The position numbers were made by a program, and so were the translations under genes. From NCBI GenBank assembly GCA_937916485.1, contig CALFSV010000208.1, positions 1 to 9,204 on the forward strand: a DNA stretch of 9,204 nucleotides. The letters run 5' to 3'. This document shows, in pieces, positions 2,806 through 9,204 of this stretch. Source of the DNA: an uncultured Paracoccaceae bacterium. Its GTDB lineage: Bacteria; Pseudomonadota; Alphaproteobacteria; Rhodobacterales; Rhodobacteraceae. Positions within the stretch are counted from its first letter, which is position 1. Each line of letters starts with the position of its first letter. The notes beneath the pieces were generated by a model. That model ran no database searches, was not told the DNA's origin, and saw only the letters and a program-made list of their open reading frames with translations.

Positions 2806-3720
2806 TCAGACCCGGCCCAAAATGACGGCGATCCAGAGCGCGATGGTGCCCAGGCTGGTCTGGCGCCGGATCCGAGCCTGACGCAGCAGCGCGATCCTTT
2901 GGAACAGTGGCAGGCCGCGCCCATCGCGAAACGCCTCGAGCAGGGGACGGTTTTCCGGGGTAAGATGGTCGATCACCGGAACCAGGCTTTCCACGGTTTT
3001 TCTGTTCCAGGTTGAAAAATGGCCACCCATCACCATTTGAAAGCGGAGGACTCGGGCCCGGACCGAGCGGTTGGCCCCGAAGAGATTGTCGTCATGCTGC
3101 CGGTAAAGGACCTGCGGCTCGGGATCGTAGATCACTTCGGCCCCGGTGCCTGTCATGATCTGATAGGCCCACCAGTCATGGAATATGATATTATTCGCAT
3201 AGGGGCGTGCGTCCAACAGGCCCGGCAATGCGGCCCGGGTCAGCACCATGGTGTTGCCGCCCGCGATATTCTGCACCAGCGCGTTCCCAAAACTCGCGCC
3301 GCGGGTGTAAGAGAGGGTGGCACCAGTCTTCTTCAGGACTTCGTTCACCAGAGTGGTCCGTCCGCAGACCATCGCCGGGTGATCCGGTTCTGGCATTTGA
3401 GCAACCGCGCGGGAGAGCTTTCCGGGTAGCCAGACATCATCCTGATCGGCAAAGGCGAAATAGGCGGCGTCGCCCACATGGCTGAGCAGGGACAGGAAAT
3501 TCCGGGCAACCCCCTGCTGCGGCCCCGCGACGAGGCGAATGTGGCGCTCGGGATTAAGGGCGGCGAAATCGCAGATCATTTGGGGGCTGGCATCGGTCGA
3601 GCCGTCATCCGAGGCGATCAGCGCCCAGTCCTCATGGGTCTGGGCGAGGAGGCTGTCGAGCTGGGCCTGCAGGAAGCGCTCTCCGTTATAGAGCGCCATG
3701 AGGATCGCGACCTTAGCCAT
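2806..3720 (-). CDS. Family 2 glycosyltransferase (capsule/polysaccharide assembly)
   Basis: The protein should transfer a sugar from a nucleotide donor to a growing glycan at the cytoplasmic face. From Met at 3720 it is 304 residues. The GT-A start is clear: VAILMALYNGERFL at residues 4-17 and SDDGSTD at 37-43. The metal-binding acidic motif DQDDVW is at 92-97, and an acceptor-side HDWW lies at 181-184. The DQDDVW plus HDWW pattern resembles rhamnosyl- and related transferases of O-antigen and capsule loci, but the sugar cannot be told from sequence. I chose 3720 rather than the upstream in-frame start at 3762 because MAKVAILMALYNG is a canonical beginning. Its ATG also overlaps the ATPase stop by eight bases, suggesting translational coupling. 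No transmembrane segment is clear; the C-terminus (TIALWIAVILG) is mildly hydrophobic and could associate with the membrane. Confidence 0.88.
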   Translation of the reverse strand: MAKVAILMALYNGERFLQAQLDSLLAQTHEDWALIASDDGSTDASPQMICDFAALNPERHIRLVAGPQQGVARNFLSLLSHVGDAAYFAFADQDDVWLPGKLSRAVAQMPEPDHPAMVCGRTTLVNEVLKKTGATLSYTRGASFGNALVQNIAGGNTMVLTRAALPGLLDARPYANNIIFHDWWAYQIMTGTGAEVIYDPEPQVLYRQHDDNLFGANRSVRARVLRFQMVMGGHFSTWNRKTVESLVPVIDHLTPENRPLLEAFRDGRGLPLFQRIALLRQARIRRQTSLGTIALWIAVILGRV

Positions 3721-4396
3721 GCGGCACCCAGTCGGGCAGGGTGCCAGCCATGGCGGTTTCATGCACTACGATGGCCTCTTCAACATCTTCATACCATTGC
3801 GCATGGCCGTTGATCATGACGATGCCAAGATCGCAGAGCTGTCGCATAAGGGGCATGGAGTGGGACACGATGAGCGCCGCACTTTCTCCGATCCGGTCCC
3901 GCATGACTTCTGCTGAGCGCGCCCGAAATGAGGCGTCCCCGACCGAAGCGACCTCGTCCACCAGATAGGTGTCGAATTTGATCCCCATAGAAAGGCCGAA
4001 GGCGAGCTTGGCGCGCATGCCGGCACTGTAGGTGCGAAACGGGGCGTGGAAATGCGGACCCAGCTCCGCGAAATCCTCGACAAAGGAGATTAACTCTTCG
4101 TTATCCACCCCATAAACGCGGCCCACGAAGCGAATATTCTGCGCGCCGGTTAGTTCCGGGTGGAACGATCCGGCAAAGCCGACCGGCCAGGAAATCGTTC
4201 CGTTCGAGGTGATCGAGCCGCTGTCAGGATCCTCAACGCCGGCCACCATCCGCAGCAGGGTCGATTTACCTGCACCGTTGCGCCCAAAGATCCCGACGGA
4301 TTTGCCCGAAGGAAAGGTCAGGTTCAGCCCATGCGCGACAGTCTTGGGCGAGCCTTTCACATAATAGGTTTTCCAAAGATCCCGGACTTCGATCAT
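3713..4396 (-). CDS. kpsT: Capsule polysaccharide ABC exporter ATPase (KpsT-like)
   Basis: This 227-residue protein is the cytoplasmic ATPase of an ABC-2 polysaccharide exporter; it powers passage of a lipid-linked glycan through a KpsM-type permease. All nucleotide-binding motifs are present. Walker A GRNGAGKST is at residues 38-46, the signature YSAGMRAKL at 123-131, Walker B YLVDE with Asp147 and Glu148, and the switch His179 in IVSHS. The short length, the WPVGF segment near 70-74 and the absence of a C-terminal carbohydrate-binding extension fit the KpsT/CtrD/BexA branch rather than the Wzt type. The start overlaps the upstream kpsE-like stop as ATGA (four bases), and the stop overlaps the glycosyltransferase start, so the three genes form a tight operon. 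The symbol is by family resemblance, not proven orthology. Confidence 0.92.
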   Translation of the reverse strand: MIEVRDLWKTYYVKGSPKTVAHGLNLTFPSGKSVGIFGRNGAGKSTLLRMVAGVEDPDSGSITSNGTISWPVGFAGSFHPELTGAQNIRFVGRVYGVDNEELISFVEDFAELGPHFHAPFRTYSAGMRAKLAFGLSMGIKFDTYLVDEVASVGDASFRARSAEVMRDRIGESAALIVSHSMPLMRQLCDLGIVMINGHAQWYEDVEEAIVVHETAMAGTLPDWVPHG

Positions 4397-5694
4397 CGCC
4401 GATCCTTGATCGCGTAGAAAATCAGTGTGCCGATGGTCCAGGACAAAAACATGAACAGCCCCAGAAGGCCCAGCAAGATCCAGCGTTGCGGATATGCTGC
4501 GCGTTCGGCAATTGTCGGGGAAATATAGGCCGCGAGGTAGCGGCTCTGCCGCTGTGCTTCGGTCAGGGCGCTTTCATAGGCAGCCCGGGCGGCGAAATAG
4601 CTTTGTTCGGCAAATTCGCGATCCACGGCCAGCCGTTCATATTCACCGACAAGCGTCGCATAATTCTCGCTTCCTGCCCCAGTTGAGGCATATTTCGCGC
4701 GCTCTTCTTCAATTCGGTCGCGGATGATCTGAACTCGATCATCCGCCTGATTGAGCCGCGGATCATTGCGCCCGGCACTGTCGGCCAATACATCATATTC
4801 GATCAGCGCGTCGGAAAGCTGTGCCTCAAGAGCGCTCAGCAGGCCGGTCTGCAATCCGATCTCGGCTTGCGGATCTACGATACGGTAGCGTGAGCGGTAT
4901 TCCGTCAGCGCTTGTCTTGCCTGCCGAAGCTGCTCCTGCGACCGATCGAGTTCCTCCCGGGCATAGCGGGTGGCATCTTCGCGGGCGATATCGCTGAACT
5001 CATTGATCATCTTGGAGCTGCTGGCGAAAATGGCTTGCGCGATTTCCTGCGCGTCTTCTGGGGTGAAGGCATGCACCCTGAGCTCAATCAGTCCGGTACC
5101 ACGGTCATAAAACACCTTGACCATCTGCCCCCAATATTCGGTCAGATCCTCGATCGTACCCTCGGGGTTATAGGCAAACCATGGATCTCTGTCATAGGGC
5201 TCGGAATAAATCCGGCGCAGATTCATCTCTACATCGAGTTGTCGGACAAGTCCCTGACTTTGGATGAACTCATACAGGATGTCTGCATCCGACGTGCTGC
5301 CCCCGCCAAGCGCCGAAAGCCCGCCCAGAATGTCGATGGCCGAGCTGATATCTTCGGTGCGCACGGCGAAGGCGGTTTGCGAGGTGAACTGATCTTCGGC
5401 CTTGGTGAACAGATACCAAGCCGCTACCACGAGCGGCAGCAAAACAAAGGCAAGGAAGCTGGCAAGAATGGCCAGATGGCGGCGATGTGGCTGGGCTGGG
5501 CCCGCCATGGGCTTGGAATGTGAGGCCGGGGTGCCTTGTCCTTGAAGACCGGCTTTCGCGGCAGCACCTGGCACTTTCTGCAGTCCCGCTGGCTGGCCCG
5601 GCTTCTCTTCGGGTTTAGCAGCTATGGCATGCTTGTCCTGCGCGGCTGGCTGAGCAGTTGATTTTTTTGGGGGGGTCTGATGGAACTTGGTCAC
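4393..5694 (-). CDS. kpsE: Capsule export inner-membrane protein (KpsE-like polysaccharide co-polymerase family)
   Basis: This 433-residue protein is a bitopic periplasmic adaptor that couples the inner-membrane exporter to the outer-membrane channel. The N-terminus (1-70) is a long Pro/Ala/Lys/Gln-rich cytoplasmic tail. A first membrane helix follows at about 73-96. The large periplasmic domain contains coiled-coil-prone heptads around ARYAREELDRSQEQLRQARQ and a second helical arm near DDRVQIIRDRIEEERAKY. A C-terminal helix lies at about 404-428 (WILLGLLGLFMFLSW), ending in IKDRR. The start used is GTG at 5694; AAGGA lies about 11 bases upstream, a slightly long spacing. An out-of-frame ATG at 5704 and a C7-A7 tract near codons 8-12 make the true start uncertain. 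The stop overlaps the ATPase start. This family is also called KpsE/CtrB/BexC. Confidence 0.9.
   Translation of the reverse strand: MTKFHQTPPKKSTAQPAAQDKHAIAAKPEEKPGQPAGLQKVPGAAAKAGLQGQGTPASHSKPMAGPAQPHRRHLAILASFLAFVLLPLVVAAWYLFTKAEDQFTSQTAFAVRTEDISSAIDILGGLSALGGGSTSDADILYEFIQSQGLVRQLDVEMNLRRIYSEPYDRDPWFAYNPEGTIEDLTEYWGQMVKVFYDRGTGLIELRVHAFTPEDAQEIAQAIFASSSKMINEFSDIAREDATRYAREELDRSQEQLRQARQALTEYRSRYRIVDPQAEIGLQTGLLSALEAQLSDALIEYDVLADSAGRNDPRLNQADDRVQIIRDRIEEERAKYASTGAGSENYATLVGEYERLAVDREFAEQSYFAARAAYESALTEAQRQSRYLAAYISPTIAERAAYPQRWILLGLLGLFMFLSWTIGTLIFYAIKDRR
5662..5675 (-). repeat. Double homopolymer tract (C7 then A7 on the coding strand) near the kpsE-like start
   Basis: On the plus strand seven T are followed by seven G; on the coding strand this is CCCCCCC then AAAAAAA, read as Thr-Pro-Pro-Lys-Lys. 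Long runs in two adjacent bases are unusual in this G+C-rich gene and can cause replication or transcription slippage. Confidence 0.9.
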
Positions 5695-5824
5695 GGCCTA
5701 GCATTTCCTTGGAGGATACCACGGCTATATCATCGATTAATAATGACGCAAATGCATACCGTTTATGTAAACCAGTGACGGGTTCGGCTTGCATCGGGAA
5801 CGGGTTTTCGCGCATCACCCTGTT
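5695..5824. promoter_or_regulatory. Divergent promoter region between the kpsE-like and kpsM-like genes
   Basis: These 130 bases separate two genes read outward, so promoters for both must lie here or inside the genes. The centre (about 5728-5770) is clearly A+T-rich. For the minus-strand operon a candidate -35 TTGCGT and -10 TATAGC are 16 bases apart on the minus strand. For the permease, a TTTATGTAAA stretch near 5761-5770 could contain a -10. ATCGAT and ATTAAT palindromes sit in the middle, but no known operator is recognised. The presence of promoters is inferred from gene orientation; the exact boxes are weak. Confidence 0.4.
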
Positions 5825-6622
5825 ATGAGTTTTTCCGCCCAAGGGCTGCATGCCCGCCGCTTCAAAACCTCGCGTACGGTGCTCGCGCTGATGCTGCGCG
5901 AGATGAGCACCTCCTATGGTCGTTCACCCGGGGGGTATCTCTGGGCTGTTCTCGAACCGGTCGGCGGATTGGCGGTGATGACGATTGCATTCTCGCTGGC
6001 GTTTCGATCCCCCGCCTTAGGAGACAACTTCCCGCTCTTCTACGCGACCGGCTATCTGCCGTTCATGATGTACTCAGATCTGGCGGCTAAGATCGGCCAG
6101 TCGATTCGATTTTCAAAACCGCTGCTGTTCTATCCAGCGGTTACTTTTGTCGATGCCATCATCGCCAGACTCCTGCTCAATGCACTGACGCATCTTATGG
6201 TGTTCTACATCCTCATGAGTGGTATCATGTTGGCCTTCGACACTGGCAATATTCTTAACTATCCGGCGATCCTAAACGCTCTGGGAATGGCGCTGGCGCT
6301 CGGATTGGGGATCGGTACCCTGAACTGCTTTCTGCTGATGCGCTTTCCGATCTGGGAGCAGGTCTGGGTGATCATAAGCCGACCACTATTCATTATTTCC
6401 GCTATTTTCTTTCTGTTCGAGAGCATCCCGCTGCCCTACCGCGACTACCTTTGGTATAACCCGCTGATCCATGTAACCGGAGAAATGCGGCGCGGTTTCT
6501 ATGCTACTTATGATGGAGCATATATCAACCCTCTTTACGTATACATGATTTCGGTGGTGGCGTTCACCATCGGGTTGATTTTCCTGAGTAGATATCACCG
6601 TGTACTCTTGAACAATCGATGA
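5825..6622 (+). CDS. kpsM: Capsule polysaccharide ABC exporter permease (KpsM-like, ABC-2 type)
   Basis: This is the membrane channel subunit partnering the KpsT-like ATPase. From ATG 5825 it is 265 residues, usual for KpsM/CtrC/BexB. The N-terminal cytoplasmic interface has LMLREMSTSYGRSPGGYLWA (about 22-41) followed by EP at 44-45, a signature of polysaccharide ABC-2 permeases. About six hydrophobic helices follow, beginning GGLAVMTIAFSLAF and ending MISVVAFTIGLIFL. Conserved late motifs include PLPYRDYLWYNPL and the ExxR..F region (GEMRRGFY). An upstream TTG in the same frame at 5789 would add 12 residues; ATG 5825 is preferred by family length, although no strong ribosome binding site precedes either. 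It is transcribed away from the kpsE/kpsT/glycosyltransferase genes, whereas KpsM and KpsT are usually co-directional. Confidence 0.92.
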   Translation: MSFSAQGLHARRFKTSRTVLALMLREMSTSYGRSPGGYLWAVLEPVGGLAVMTIAFSLAFRSPALGDNFPLFYATGYLPFMMYSDLAAKIGQSIRFSKPLLFYPAVTFVDAIIARLLLNALTHLMVFYILMSGIMLAFDTGNILNYPAILNALGMALALGLGIGTLNCFLLMRFPIWEQVWVIISRPLFIISAIFFLFESIPLPYRDYLWYNPLIHVTGEMRRGFYATYDGAYINPLYVYMISVVAFTIGLIFLSRYHRVLLNNR

Positions 6623-6799: not shown

Positions 6800-6805
6800 T
6801 GTTGA

Positions 6806-6825
6806 TTTCCATCCAGAAGTGACCC
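6806..6825 (+). repeat. IS21 terminal repeat, copy 1
   Basis: This 20-base unit, TTTCCATCCAGAAGTGACCC, has a second copy that starts at 6840 (TTTCCATTGAGAATTGA) and whose CCC end resumes at 8232, after the inserted element. Multiple repeats of this kind at each end are the transposase binding sites of IS21 elements. Confidence 0.7.
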
Positions 6826-6839
6826 GGGTAGCGGCATAA

Positions 6840-6856
6840 TTTCCATTGAGAATTGA
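6840..6856 (+). repeat. IS21 terminal repeat, copy 2 (left half, split by insertion)
   Basis: TTTCCATTGAGAATTGA matches copy 1 up to TGA. The remainder (CCC) resumes at 8232, directly after a second TGA at 8229-8231. Joining the two at TGA restores a complete repeat unit of the same length as copy 1. Confidence 0.7.
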
Positions 6857-6861
6857 TGGGG

Positions 6862-6872
6862 TGGATACCCCC
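6862..6872 (+). repeat. Subterminal inverted repeat, left
   Basis: TGGATACCCCC is an exact reverse complement of 8214-8224. It lies about five bases inside the predicted left boundary. Confidence 0.88.
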
Positions 6873-6920
6873 TCCCGACGGCATCGCAATGTGCCAAAGT
6901 GATGTGGGTGACATCACGAG

Positions 6921-6927
6921 AAGGAGG
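6921..6927 (+). promoter_or_regulatory. Strong ribosome binding site of the IS1111-type transposase
   Basis: AAGGAGG lies eight bases before the ATG at 6936. This near-perfect Shine-Dalgarno decides the start codon. Confidence 0.85.
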
Positions 6928-6935
6928 AAGTATCC

Positions 6936-7964
6936 ATGGAACAAGTTACCATCATAGGGTTGGATTTGGCAAAGCGGGCTTTTCAAGCTCACGGCGCTAC
7001 GGCGGAGGGCCAAGTCGCATTCCGCAAGAAGTTGTCACGTGGTCAGGTATTGGCGTTCTTCGCGAGCCTGCGCCCCTGTGTGGTTGCGATGGAAGCATGT
7101 GCCACGGCGCATTACTGGGCGCGTGAGCTTGGCGCTCTGGGACACGACATCAGGTTGGTGCCGCCTGCGTATGTCAAACCTTTCGTCAAGCGCCAAAAGA
7201 ATGATGCTGCCGATGCGGAGGCCATAGCTGAAGCGGCCAGCCGTCCGACCATGCGATTTGTTGAACCAAAGTCACCCCGACAGCAGGCTCGTGCCATGAT
7301 CTTTCGGACGCGCGATCTGTTTGTCCTCCAGAGGACACAAACGGTCAACGCGCTGCGGGCTCACTTGGCAGAGCATGGCCTGATTGCACCTCAGGGTCTG
7401 TCGAACCTCGCAGGTATCGAGCGGCTTGTTGAAGAGAGTGCGACGGACTTGGAACCTTTGGTGGCCGAGACAGCACGTATCTACCTTGAACAGATCAATG
7501 ATCTGACCGGTCGCATCGTGAAGATGGAGGCGACATTGCAGCAAGAGGCCGCACAATCTGATGCCTCATCACGGATGATTACAATGCCCGGCATTGGGCC
7601 GATTACCGCGATGGCAATTGAAGCCTTCGCGCCCACCCTGTCAGTGTTCAAGCGCAGCAGGGATTTTGCGGCCTGGCTGGGACTGGTGCCGCGGCAACAT
7701 TCTACCGGAGGCAAACAGGTGCTGGGGCGAACCTCGAAGATGGGGCAGCGTGATATCCGACGCCTGTTAATCATCGGTGCTATGTCGGTGATCCGCTGGG
7801 CAACCTGTAAAGGAACAATCCGGGGTACCTGGCTCCACACCATGCTGCAGCGCAAGCCACGCAAGGTGGTCGCAATCGCGCTGGCTAACAAGATGGCCCG
7901 GGCGCTCTGGGCGATGGAAACGCGGAAAGAGAATTACAGAGATCCACGACTGGCAGCAGCCTGA
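6936..7964 (+). CDS. IS1111-type transposase (IS110 family DEDD recombinase)
   Basis: This 342-residue enzyme should excise the element as a circle and insert it at a target chosen by a guide RNA. The four catalytic acids are all present. Asp10 lies in GLDLAK, Glu53 in AMEACATAHYW, and Asp90 and Asp93 in KNDAADAEAI, which is the RuvC-like DEDD domain. A central helical region (about 110-210) leads to the C-terminal Transposase_20 domain. That domain has MPGIGPITAMAIEAF (217-231) and HSTGGK containing Ser256, at the position of the serine thought to form the covalent DNA link in this family. Length, motifs and start all match an intact IS1111-group protein. The stop codon lies inside a 15-base palindrome (7960-7974). 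Confidence 0.95.
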   Translation: MEQVTIIGLDLAKRAFQAHGATAEGQVAFRKKLSRGQVLAFFASLRPCVVAMEACATAHYWARELGALGHDIRLVPPAYVKPFVKRQKNDAADAEAIAEAASRPTMRFVEPKSPRQQARAMIFRTRDLFVLQRTQTVNALRAHLAEHGLIAPQGLSNLAGIERLVEESATDLEPLVAETARIYLEQINDLTGRIVKMEATLQQEAAQSDASSRMITMPGIGPITAMAIEAFAPTLSVFKRSRDFAAWLGLVPRQHSTGGKQVLGRTSKMGQRDIRRLLIIGAMSVIRWATCKGTIRGTWLHTMLQRKPRKVVAIALANKMARALWAMETRKENYRDPRLAAA

Positions 7965-7974
7965 CAGTGTCAGG
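7960..7974 (+). repeat. Perfect 7-bp palindrome over the transposase stop codon
   Basis: CCTGACAGTGTCAGG has seven paired bases around a single central G. It spans the TGA stop at 7962-7964. The loop is too short for a simple RNA hairpin without opening inner pairs. It may be a protein site or the 5' stem of the right-end RNA. Confidence 0.6.
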
Positions 7975-8213
7975 TCGCCAAGAGTGGGACGTCGGCGTGT
8001 GGGGAGGTCATAGGCAGTAAGGACAAAAGATCGGTGACGATGGTTCTGGAAACGTATCCGGGTCAATGGGCCATGAGCCCGCAGAATTGATTTTGCACCA
8101 GAGCCGCGCAGCTCCATACCGGCCAGCGGTCACGTGTTTGCCGCACAACAGGCCTGATACATGACCGCCCCCGATCACACGTCAATGCTGTTCAAAAGCC
8201 AACTTGCGCGAAC
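7965..8213 (+). ncRNA. Predicted bridge (seek) RNA region of the IS1111-type element
   Basis: In IS1111-group elements the right end downstream of the transposase encodes a structured RNA. Its loops pair with the target and with the element's own junction. This non-coding stretch has the right place and size. At 8060-8091 a small hairpin (GGGC-CATGA-GCCC, 8068-8080) is flanked by GGGTCAAT (8060-8067) and AGAATTGA (8083-8090). The first is the reverse complement of ATTGACCC and the second is identical to the left half of the reconstructed target AGAATTGACCC. This is the layout of a target-binding loop. Another stem (GAGC/GCTC, 8101-8114) follows. The RNA's exact ends and the donor-binding guides could not be assigned. 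Confidence 0.6.
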
Positions 8214-8224
8214 GGGGGTATCCA
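8214..8224 (-). repeat. Subterminal inverted repeat, right
   Basis: GGGGGTATCCA is the exact reverse complement of 6862-6872 and lies about five to seven bases inside the predicted right boundary. Confidence 0.88.
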
Positions 8225-8275
8225 TAAATGACCCATGTGACCCTTCTCCCAGCGCCATGCGCAGCGGGGGACTCT

Positions 8276-8279
8276 GGAG
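8276..8279 (+). promoter_or_regulatory. Ribosome binding site of istA
   Basis: GGAG lies eight bases before the ATG at 8288. This supports that start over the in-frame ATG at 8228, which sits at the junction of the inserted element. Confidence 0.65.
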
Positions 8280-8377
8280 TGATACACATGGGACTTTTGA
8301 ACATCATTCGACGTATGGCTTTGAGAGAGAAGTTGCCCCTGCGCGAGATTGCGCGGCGGACCGGGATGTCACGCAGT

Positions 8378-8412
8378 GAGCGGCGAACGCCATCGGTTCA
8401 AGAGAGCCGCGA
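8378..8412 (+). repeat. Miniature hairpin insertion A (35 bases) in istA
   Basis: Removing these 35 bases restores MSR-STIKKYL, a normal IstA helix-turn-helix sequence. The insert begins GAG and ends CGA, and contains the core CCATCGGTTCAAGA (8390-8403). Its arms GCGGC (8380-8384) and GCCGC (8406-8410) are complementary. Its core is 13 of 14 identical to that of insertion B. Confidence 0.7.
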
Positions 8413-8887
8413 ACGATCAAGAAGTATCTGAAGGCAGGCACGATCGAGCCTCAGTTCGCGACGCCGGAGCGGCAGAGCAAGCTCGATCCATTTGCCGAGA
8501 AGCTGGCCGGCTGGCTGAAGACGGAGGCGGGGAAGTCTCGCAAGCAGCGGCGCACGCTGAAGCAGATGCATGCCGATCTGGTGGTTCGCGGCTTTTGCGC
8601 GCGACTCGCAGGCCGATCGGCAGCGCGATCAGCAGACGACAGGCCGCGGCACCTTCGTGCCGCTGTCTTTTCGCCCGGGCGAAGCATTCCAGTTCGACTG
8701 GAGCGAAGATTTTGCCATTCTGGGTGGCGAGCGCACGAAGCTCCAAGTCACCCACATCAAGCTGTCGCACAGCCGGGCCTTCCTGGTCCGGGCTCATCTG
8801 CTGCAAACGCACGAGATGCTGTTCGATGCCCATTGGCACGGGTTCCGGGTCTTCGGCGGCATCCCGGAGCGCGGCGTCTATGACAGC

Positions 8888-8925
8888 GAGACCATGTTCT
8901 CCATTGGTTCAAGAACAATGGTCGA
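8888..8925 (+). repeat. Miniature hairpin insertion B (38 bases) in istA
   Basis: Removing these 38 bases rejoins VYDS to ARTAVDRVGRG in frame, close to the normal YDNMRTAVD motif. The insert begins GAG and ends CGA and has the core CCATTGGTTCAAGA (8901-8914). Arms GACCAT (8890-8895) and ATGGTC (8918-8923) are complementary. Pairing extends to GTTCT/AGAAC with one bulged base, giving an 11-pair stem. Confidence 0.7.
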
Positions 8926-9204
8926 GCGCGCACCGCAGTTGATCGCGTCGGTCGCGGGAAGGACCGGCAGGTCAACATGCGGTTCCTTGCGATGGCAAAC
9001 CACTACGTATTCGAGCCGACGTTCTGAAATCCTGCCGCCGGCTGGGAGAAGGGACAGGTCGAGAAGAACGTGCGGGATGCCAGGCATCGTCTGTGGCAAC
9101 TCATGCCGAGCTTTCCTGATCTCGCGGCACTGAATGACTGGCTGGAACCGCGTGTCTGACGTCAGCGCCCATGGGACAGTTTAGGCATATTGCGGAACGG
9201 AGGG

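Follow-up and report, generated by a model that had tools for sequence, protein, structure and literature searches.

The IS1111-type insertion sequence in the window, by which we mean the whole stretch of 9,204 nucleotides that was analysed, almost certainly encodes in its right end a bridge RNA or seekRNA for its DEDD recombinase, and this RNA would carry target and donor guides and lead to insertion at the core of a motif at the tip of an IS21-family element. The mechanism is already known, because the available parts of two published studies describe the same organisation for the IS1111 seekRNA and the bridge RNA (PMC11187229, PMC11208160). New, as far as we searched, is that guides of the AGAAC / ACCCGG type appear to mark insertions in IS21-family terminal repeats. 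The window element can be regarded as a very clear natural example of RNA guidance with an unusual choice of target.

The element and its empty site

The features of the element and of its flanks are collected in Table 1. The core dinucleotide TG stands at both junctions (6854-6855 and 8229-8230), and joining of the flanks yields ...GAGAATTGACCCATGTG..., with AGAATTGACCC inside. Plasmids of Loktanella salsilacus (L109) and Hoeflea sp. (L112) carry this joined sequence without interruption, and the pre-insertion site is therefore real; a one-base gap in the match stems from an additional base at the joint of the query. An earlier sequence-only reading had taken the joined flanks as the target, which the two empty sites bear out, and had read the shared sequence as TGA; the latter has to be corrected to TG, since target and left end both go on with A.

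Table 1. Positions of the element, its RNA, the guides and the flanking IS21-family parts in the window
Feature	Position	Strand	Evidence or remark
IS1111-type insertion sequence, 1375 bp	6854..8228	+	sTIRs, shared core, two empty sites
Left subterminal inverted repeat (sTIR) TGGATACCCCC	6862..6872	+	11/11 complementary to 8214-8224
Right subterminal inverted repeat GGGGGTATCCA	8214..8224	+	
DEDD transposase/recombinase, 342 aa	6936..7964	+	NCBIfam NF033542, Pfam PF01548 and PF02371
Predicted bridge/seek RNA, long form, limits approximate	8022..8182	+	Covarying consensus fold; model R1
Closing stem 8029-8033/8172-8176; inner helices 8121-8124/8151-8154 and 8126-8130/8140-8144	8029..8176	+	Consensus fold
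Predicted target-binding stem-loop	8042..8105	+	Stem 8042-8049/8098-8105 and 8054-8056/8094-8096, apical hairpin 8068-8071/8077-8080
Putative right target guide, antisense, CCGGGT + CA	8058..8065	+	Complementary to core TG + ACCCGG; scan peak z 13.9
Putative left target guide, sense, AGAAT + core TG	8083..8089	+	Same as left target; scan peak z 18.0
Candidate right donor guide CTCCATAC, antisense to left-end ATGG	8112..8119	+	z 3.3-3.9
Putative left donor guide ATACATG	8157..8163	+	Own 6.96/7 vs swapped 5.47, z 11.7, N=46
Left flank: outer and inner IS21-family terminal repeats, tip TGTTGATT at 6800	6800..6855	+	Matches IS21-family ends in L110 and L111
Right flank: remainder of IS21-family left end and broken istA	8231..9204	+	tblastn of IstA

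The transposase scored 306 bits against the NCBIfam family NF033542, 'IS110 family RNA-guided transposase' (cut-off 140). Judged by its sequence features, namely the DEDD transposase with both Pfam domains, the sTIRs and the long non-coding end downstream of the transposase gene (264 nt, 7965-8228), the element is a member of the IS1111 group of the IS110 family. Its sTIR is 11 bp long, and in clean-ended relatives the length is mostly 11-13 bp. The distance between the sTIRs in the circle amounts to 12 bp here and to 10 bp, from asymmetric extensions of 7 and 3 bp, in relatives whose sTIR measures 13 bp (L019, for example). The closest copies, among the best 80 of 578 relatives and the plasmid matches, were found in Alphaproteobacteria.

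The window also holds a second IS110-family transposase of the longer type (284-1495, 403 aa) and, between insertion sequences, a stretch of polysaccharide-export-like genes (2806-6622), in which the Pfam matches were to a glycosyltransferase and an ABC-transporter ATPase only.

Related elements

A search with the transposase as query provided 80 loci on genome contigs (the best 80 of 578 relatives found), 23 loci on viral contigs and copies on plasmids. The end finder was given 103 sequences, comprising the 80 genome loci, three plasmid loci, 19 of the 23 viral loci and the window, and candidate ends were found for 88 of these. A total of 82 elements with an sTIR score of at least 7 and a non-coding end of 250-312 nt were kept; 77 of them showed flanks on both sides and cores that agreed (L007, L008, L021, L072 and L092 were removed), and 46 were left after deduplication, in which elements with a non-coding-end identity of at least 80% were removed. 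The covariance model R1 was built from these 46 training rows, the window included. Matches to it were found in 52 of 385 genomes sampled within a class and, within one family, in 146 of 394, the family being that of the genome (G013) of the Sulfitobacter MAG locus L055. For a further test, 99 model matches in 94 sources were considered, of which 45 gave ends, the 54 without ends being left out; 44 of the 45 lay outside the 46, 27 remained after mutual deduplication and, the guides of five resembling those of elements already used, 22 elements with dissimilar guides were obtained.

Target guides

In the window, GGGTCAAT (8060-8067) occurs once on the + strand, and AGAATTGA occurs twice, at 8083 and at 6849, the latter being the left flank itself. 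Among 20,000 Markov-resampled 264-nt right ends, three contained two such 8-mer matches in order and within a span of 40 nt, a chance figure (0.00015) that was calculated after the fact and is partly circular because guides sharing the core are partly complementary to each other. The decisive evidence for the guides is not this single-window figure but the family-wide comparison of own and swapped flanks, in which RNA 6-mers at 258 usable alignment columns were held against each element's own flanks and those of the others in the 46 elements.

The left-flank signal formed a single peak ending at 8087, with 4.78 of 6 matches for own and 1.63 for swapped flanks (z 18.0), and the best column more than four positions away reached only z 3.2. 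For the right flank, the peak stood at 8063 (own 4.11/6 vs swapped 1.61, z 13.9), the next column forming a shoulder of z 6.0; farther than four positions away, no column exceeded z 3.1. Position by position, the left guide corresponds to target positions -5 to -1 plus the core (8083-8089), with own values of 0.78-1.00 against 0.25-0.43 for swapped pairs; the second core base is invariant in the 46 elements and hence uninformative. On the right, the guide corresponds to the core (8064-8065) and to the six bases that follow it in the target (8058-8063; own 0.61-0.76 vs swapped 0.24-0.34), and it may perhaps extend to 8066, the base before the core, where a weaker signal was seen (0.57 vs 0.25). 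No guide signal was found at 8067 and 8090 in this per-position test of the 46 elements. As read from these comparisons, the target address code is five nucleotides plus core on the left and six plus core, in antisense, on the right. The match of 8060-8067 and 8083-8090 to the element's own insertion site, from which the sequence-only reading had started, is thus borne out by the flanks and by the own-versus-swapped test; the places were right, the ends being off by one to two nucleotides.

Scored at its five positions, the left guide matched its own target with 4.50/5 compared with 1.35/5 for swapped pairs (N=46). At a fixed register, 28 of the 46 left guides and 20 of the 46 right guides were perfect. 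With a one-base slip allowed, 34 of the 46 right guides matched at five or six of six positions, 1.2 being expected from swapped pairs; the weaker fit of the right guide across the family is partly due to elements with an extra guide base, which were scored out of register. The 27 deduplicated further elements gave 4.15/5 for the left guide (swapped 1.21) and 4.22/6 for the right guide (swapped 1.57). For the 22 with dissimilar guides, the values were 4.23/5 vs 1.21 (z 11.8) on the left and 4.00/6 vs 1.50 (z 9.5) on the right, in permutations that ignore phylogeny, as do all own-versus-swapped permutations here. Elements with transposases about 55-70% identical to that of the window have quite different targets, each of them spelled in both guides at fixed columns of the conserved fold; relatives at other targets carry different segments that match their own targets, which is the covariation that had been proposed as a check. 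Indeed, own guides fit own targets across the 46 elements, in agreement with the earlier claim that specificity can be read from the element. In the window copy, the right guide reads ACCCGG and the site ACCCAT, a match of 4/6.

Eight related elements with an AG core (L019, L022, L026, L027, L031, L033, L041 and L074) have a right flank of about 30 bp in common, mostly AAGGTT...CCCTCCGC, and left flanks that differ and fit poorly to the left guide. The common right flank resembles what we take to be the 3' end of a tRNA-Ser, and these elements were possibly inserted at att sites of integrated islands. ARAGORN detected no tRNA at this insertion site in nine joined flank pairs, and Rfam gave no match at the gathering threshold in L026, L041, L074 and L083.

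RNA fold

The model R1 matched positions 8022-8182 with 132 bits, a score to be read with the window being one of its own 46 training rows. The consensus fold of the 46 RNAs comprises 29 pairs with 97.8% of the cells being standard pairs, and double-sided changes are present in 21 of the 29. None of 500 shuffles reached any of five fold measures, which apply to a structure derived from the same alignment. The three helices of the target loop are paired in 95.9, 98.6 and 97.8% of the cells, each with double changes. Both guides share one internal loop, bordered on one side by the 8-bp and 3-bp stem and on the other by the GGGC/GCCC hairpin, as had been supposed when the two segments were placed beside this hairpin inside a target-binding loop, and the conserved fold, which had been named as a further check, keeps both segments there. 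The single-sequence lowest-energy fold of the window pairs GCAGAA (8081-8086) with UUUUGC (8091-8096), covering part of the left guide, and also pairs two bases of the right guide; the two guides are not paired together in it. Among 4227 Rfam families, none was found at 8022-8182 up to E=1.

Donor guides and circle junction

A further segment of the RNA, located in the multiloop of the consensus fold (8157-8163), matches the last five bases of the right end plus the core of each element. In the donor scan of 227 columns, from which the right end itself was excluded, the next column was 8089, part of the target-guide core, with z 5.4. This putative left donor guide is perfect in 44 of the 46 elements, the exceptions being L080 and the window copy, in which the right end (8224-8230) reads ATAAATG against the guide ATACATG. 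The single mismatch lies at 8227, which is an A in the window copy and a C in its donor guide and in the right ends of clean-ended close relatives. Because the right target guide fits at 4/6 and the donor guide has this one mismatch, this copy may have decayed in part, or a parental RNA that differed slightly may have guided it.

Positions 8112-8119 may hold a right donor guide. The 8-mer with its end at 8119 scores z 3.9 and the 6-mer with its end at 8117 scores z 3.3, values that are equalled at other columns (8132, z 3.9; 8057, z 3.6).

In 43 of the 46 elements, TTGC stands in the right end exactly 17 bp before the NANGAT hexamer of the joined ends, compared with at most 3/46 at any other single offset in the last 60 bases; the exceptions are L080 (TTGA), L106 (TTGT) and L047 (spacing of 16 bp). 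The hexamer, whose NGAT follows from the definition of the ends, arises only when the ends are joined. A circle-junction promoter has been described in the literature, and the arrangement seen here, judged by motif and spacing, fits it.

Insertion at the tips of IS21-family elements

Judged by its istA/istB genes, its TGTTGATT tips and its repeated terminal motifs, the target is an IS21-family element. Within the window, only its left end and a broken istA are visible, the latter with three tblastn matches of 52-81% identity to IstA in the right flank, and the left flank carries two repeats of the type TTTCCANNNAGAANTGACCC. In L110, istA and istB are annotated (NCBIfam NF033546 and NF038214), in L111 istB is annotated and istA lies in two pieces (tblastn), and both have TGTTGATT tips at both ends.

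Selection by guides alone, namely those like AGAAC / ACCCGG with at least 3/5 and at least 4/6 matches, retrieved 11 of the 82 aligned elements: the window, L001-L005, L007, L010, L016, L082 and L083. The tip TGTTGATT was present within 70 nt on the left-end side in 10 of these 11 and in 0 of the 71 others. In eight elements, its first base lies exactly 20 bp ahead of the core; the window element and L001 are inserted in an inner repeat, and L016 displays two such repeats without the exact TGTTGATT. The right flank starts with ACCC in 10 of the 11, that of L002 being unrelated. By tblastn, istA or istB was found in the window, L001, L005, L016 (with an additional short IstA match on the left side) and L081, the other loci of the group being assigned by tip sequence alone; L006 and L081 have no clean right end and stand outside the 82. 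According to gene order, the insertion in the window lies at the istA end and that in L001 at the istB end. Within the group, left guides track the variable tip bases (exact permutation p 0.002, N=9 with one kept per near-identical pair, phylogeny ignored), and no significant tracking was found for right guides (exact permutation p 0.25, N=8, L002 left out).

At L083:2487-3914, the IS1111 copy lies inside a 55-bp palindrome of two back-to-back IS21-type tips flanked by an apparent 8-bp duplication (GGCAGAGT). This unit is perhaps a minimal, tips-only IS21 element, and the IS21 transposase could therefore move it as a whole. At L082:2487-5470, one plasmid contains two inverted copies of the element, each beside an IS21-type tip, with the right flank of the second copy being unlike its guide.

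The whole clade could be an RNA-guided parasite specialised on the terminal repeats of IS21-family elements. It would enter the repeats of both tips, always split them at one and the same base and lie with its left end tipward; its left guide would track the drift of the tips, and its insertions would probably disable or re-border the IS21 element. For this broader picture, we consider the case evenly balanced.

Alternative explanations

The sequence-only reading had itself cautioned that GTCAAT and ATTGAT might merely pair as an RNA stem, the match to the target being a chance by-product. The two segments are indeed complementary over the core and its neighbours, but the consensus fold leaves both of them unpaired, they change between elements in step with the flanks, and the own-versus-swapped results in the 46 and the 22 elements speak against a simple stem, so that we give this reading practically no credence. 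Recognition of the site by protein-DNA contacts, or capture of an ancestral copy of the target, would leave a match that is inherited and not functional. Such an origin would agree with the strong conservation of guides and targets within the IS21-tip group and with the right guides there, which do not track the target significantly (p 0.25, N=8); it is nevertheless very unlikely, as relatives of about 55-70% identity have quite different targets with both guides at fixed columns of the fold, and the left guide tracks variable bases even within the group (p 0.002, N=9, phylogeny ignored). A possible though less probable reading is that the RNA guides excision as well as insertion, and that the match of flanks and guides is kept by selection on circle formation. 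For ISEc11, circles no longer formed once the target bases flanking the donor on either side had been replaced, according to the available part of the report (PMC11187229), and such a role would be compatible with guided insertion.

The explanation that we prefer remains a structured RNA, bridge RNA or seekRNA, that would come from the right end of the element and be employed by its DEDD recombinase. Its multiloop donor guide (8157-8163) would pair with the element's own right end and core, the joined ends of the circular element would make a promoter, and the circle would go in at the core of whichever site the target guides specify, for the window element the repeated motif at IS21-family tips. 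What the compared sequences themselves show is that target guides match flanks and donor guides match right ends across the family, that the RNAs share a fold, that empty sites exist and that the site belongs to an IS21-family element; production, binding and use of the RNA, the formation of circles and the strand pairing would follow by analogy with published relatives.

Relation to known systems

According to the available parts of Siddiquee et al. 2024 (PMC11187229), the elements with an IS1111 seekRNA (ISEc11, ISPa11, ISKpn4 and ISPst6) have the same DEDD transposase, sTIRs and long non-coding end downstream of tnp, and their RNA likewise contains two short matches, the top-strand one 5' of the bottom-strand one, that overlap in the target; for ISEc11, reprogrammed guides redirect insertion. 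The window element differs from these in its lineage and its target, and here the code was derived from natural covariation and the donor guide was resolved. In the parts of Durrant et al. 2024 (PMC11208160) at hand, the bridge RNA of IS621 likewise has both target guides in one internal loop with a shared core dinucleotide, a donor-binding segment is likewise present in IS110/IS1111 bridge RNAs, and potential donor nucleotides are placed in the multiloop of IS1111 bridge RNAs. In the IS110 group, the RNA is located in the left end, whereas that of the window element lies in the right end, and IS621 has a CT core, in contrast to NG (TG, AG or CG) in the present elements; the guide order of the IS110 group is opposite to that of IS1111, as far as stated in the available part of PMC11187229.

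In the titles and abstract openings of freely accessible papers, we found no recognisable report of IS1111/IS110 elements in IS21 ends. IS4321/IS5075 are said, by Partridge and Hall in 2003, to target the terminal inverted repeats of the Tn21 family, and for IS1383 the reported target is the inverted repeats of IS1384 (Muller et al., 2001). Going by the titles, one mobile element likewise inserts there into terminal repeats of a different one; in the present case, the victim belongs to the IS21 family and has more than one such repeat per end. The available parts of PMC11208158 and PMC3281130 contain no description of IS1111/IS110 elements in IS21 ends.

For this lineage of IS1111 elements, the target address is readable from genome sequence as 5 + 2 + 6 bases at fixed places of one covarying fold, which makes it possible to compute from sequence what such programmable recombinases target and how they have been retargeted. 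The left donor guide, which for IS1111 has been published as potential donor-binding nucleotides in the accessible part of PMC11208160, covaries strongly here. The IS21-tip group is a further case of a mobile element aimed at the ends of another.
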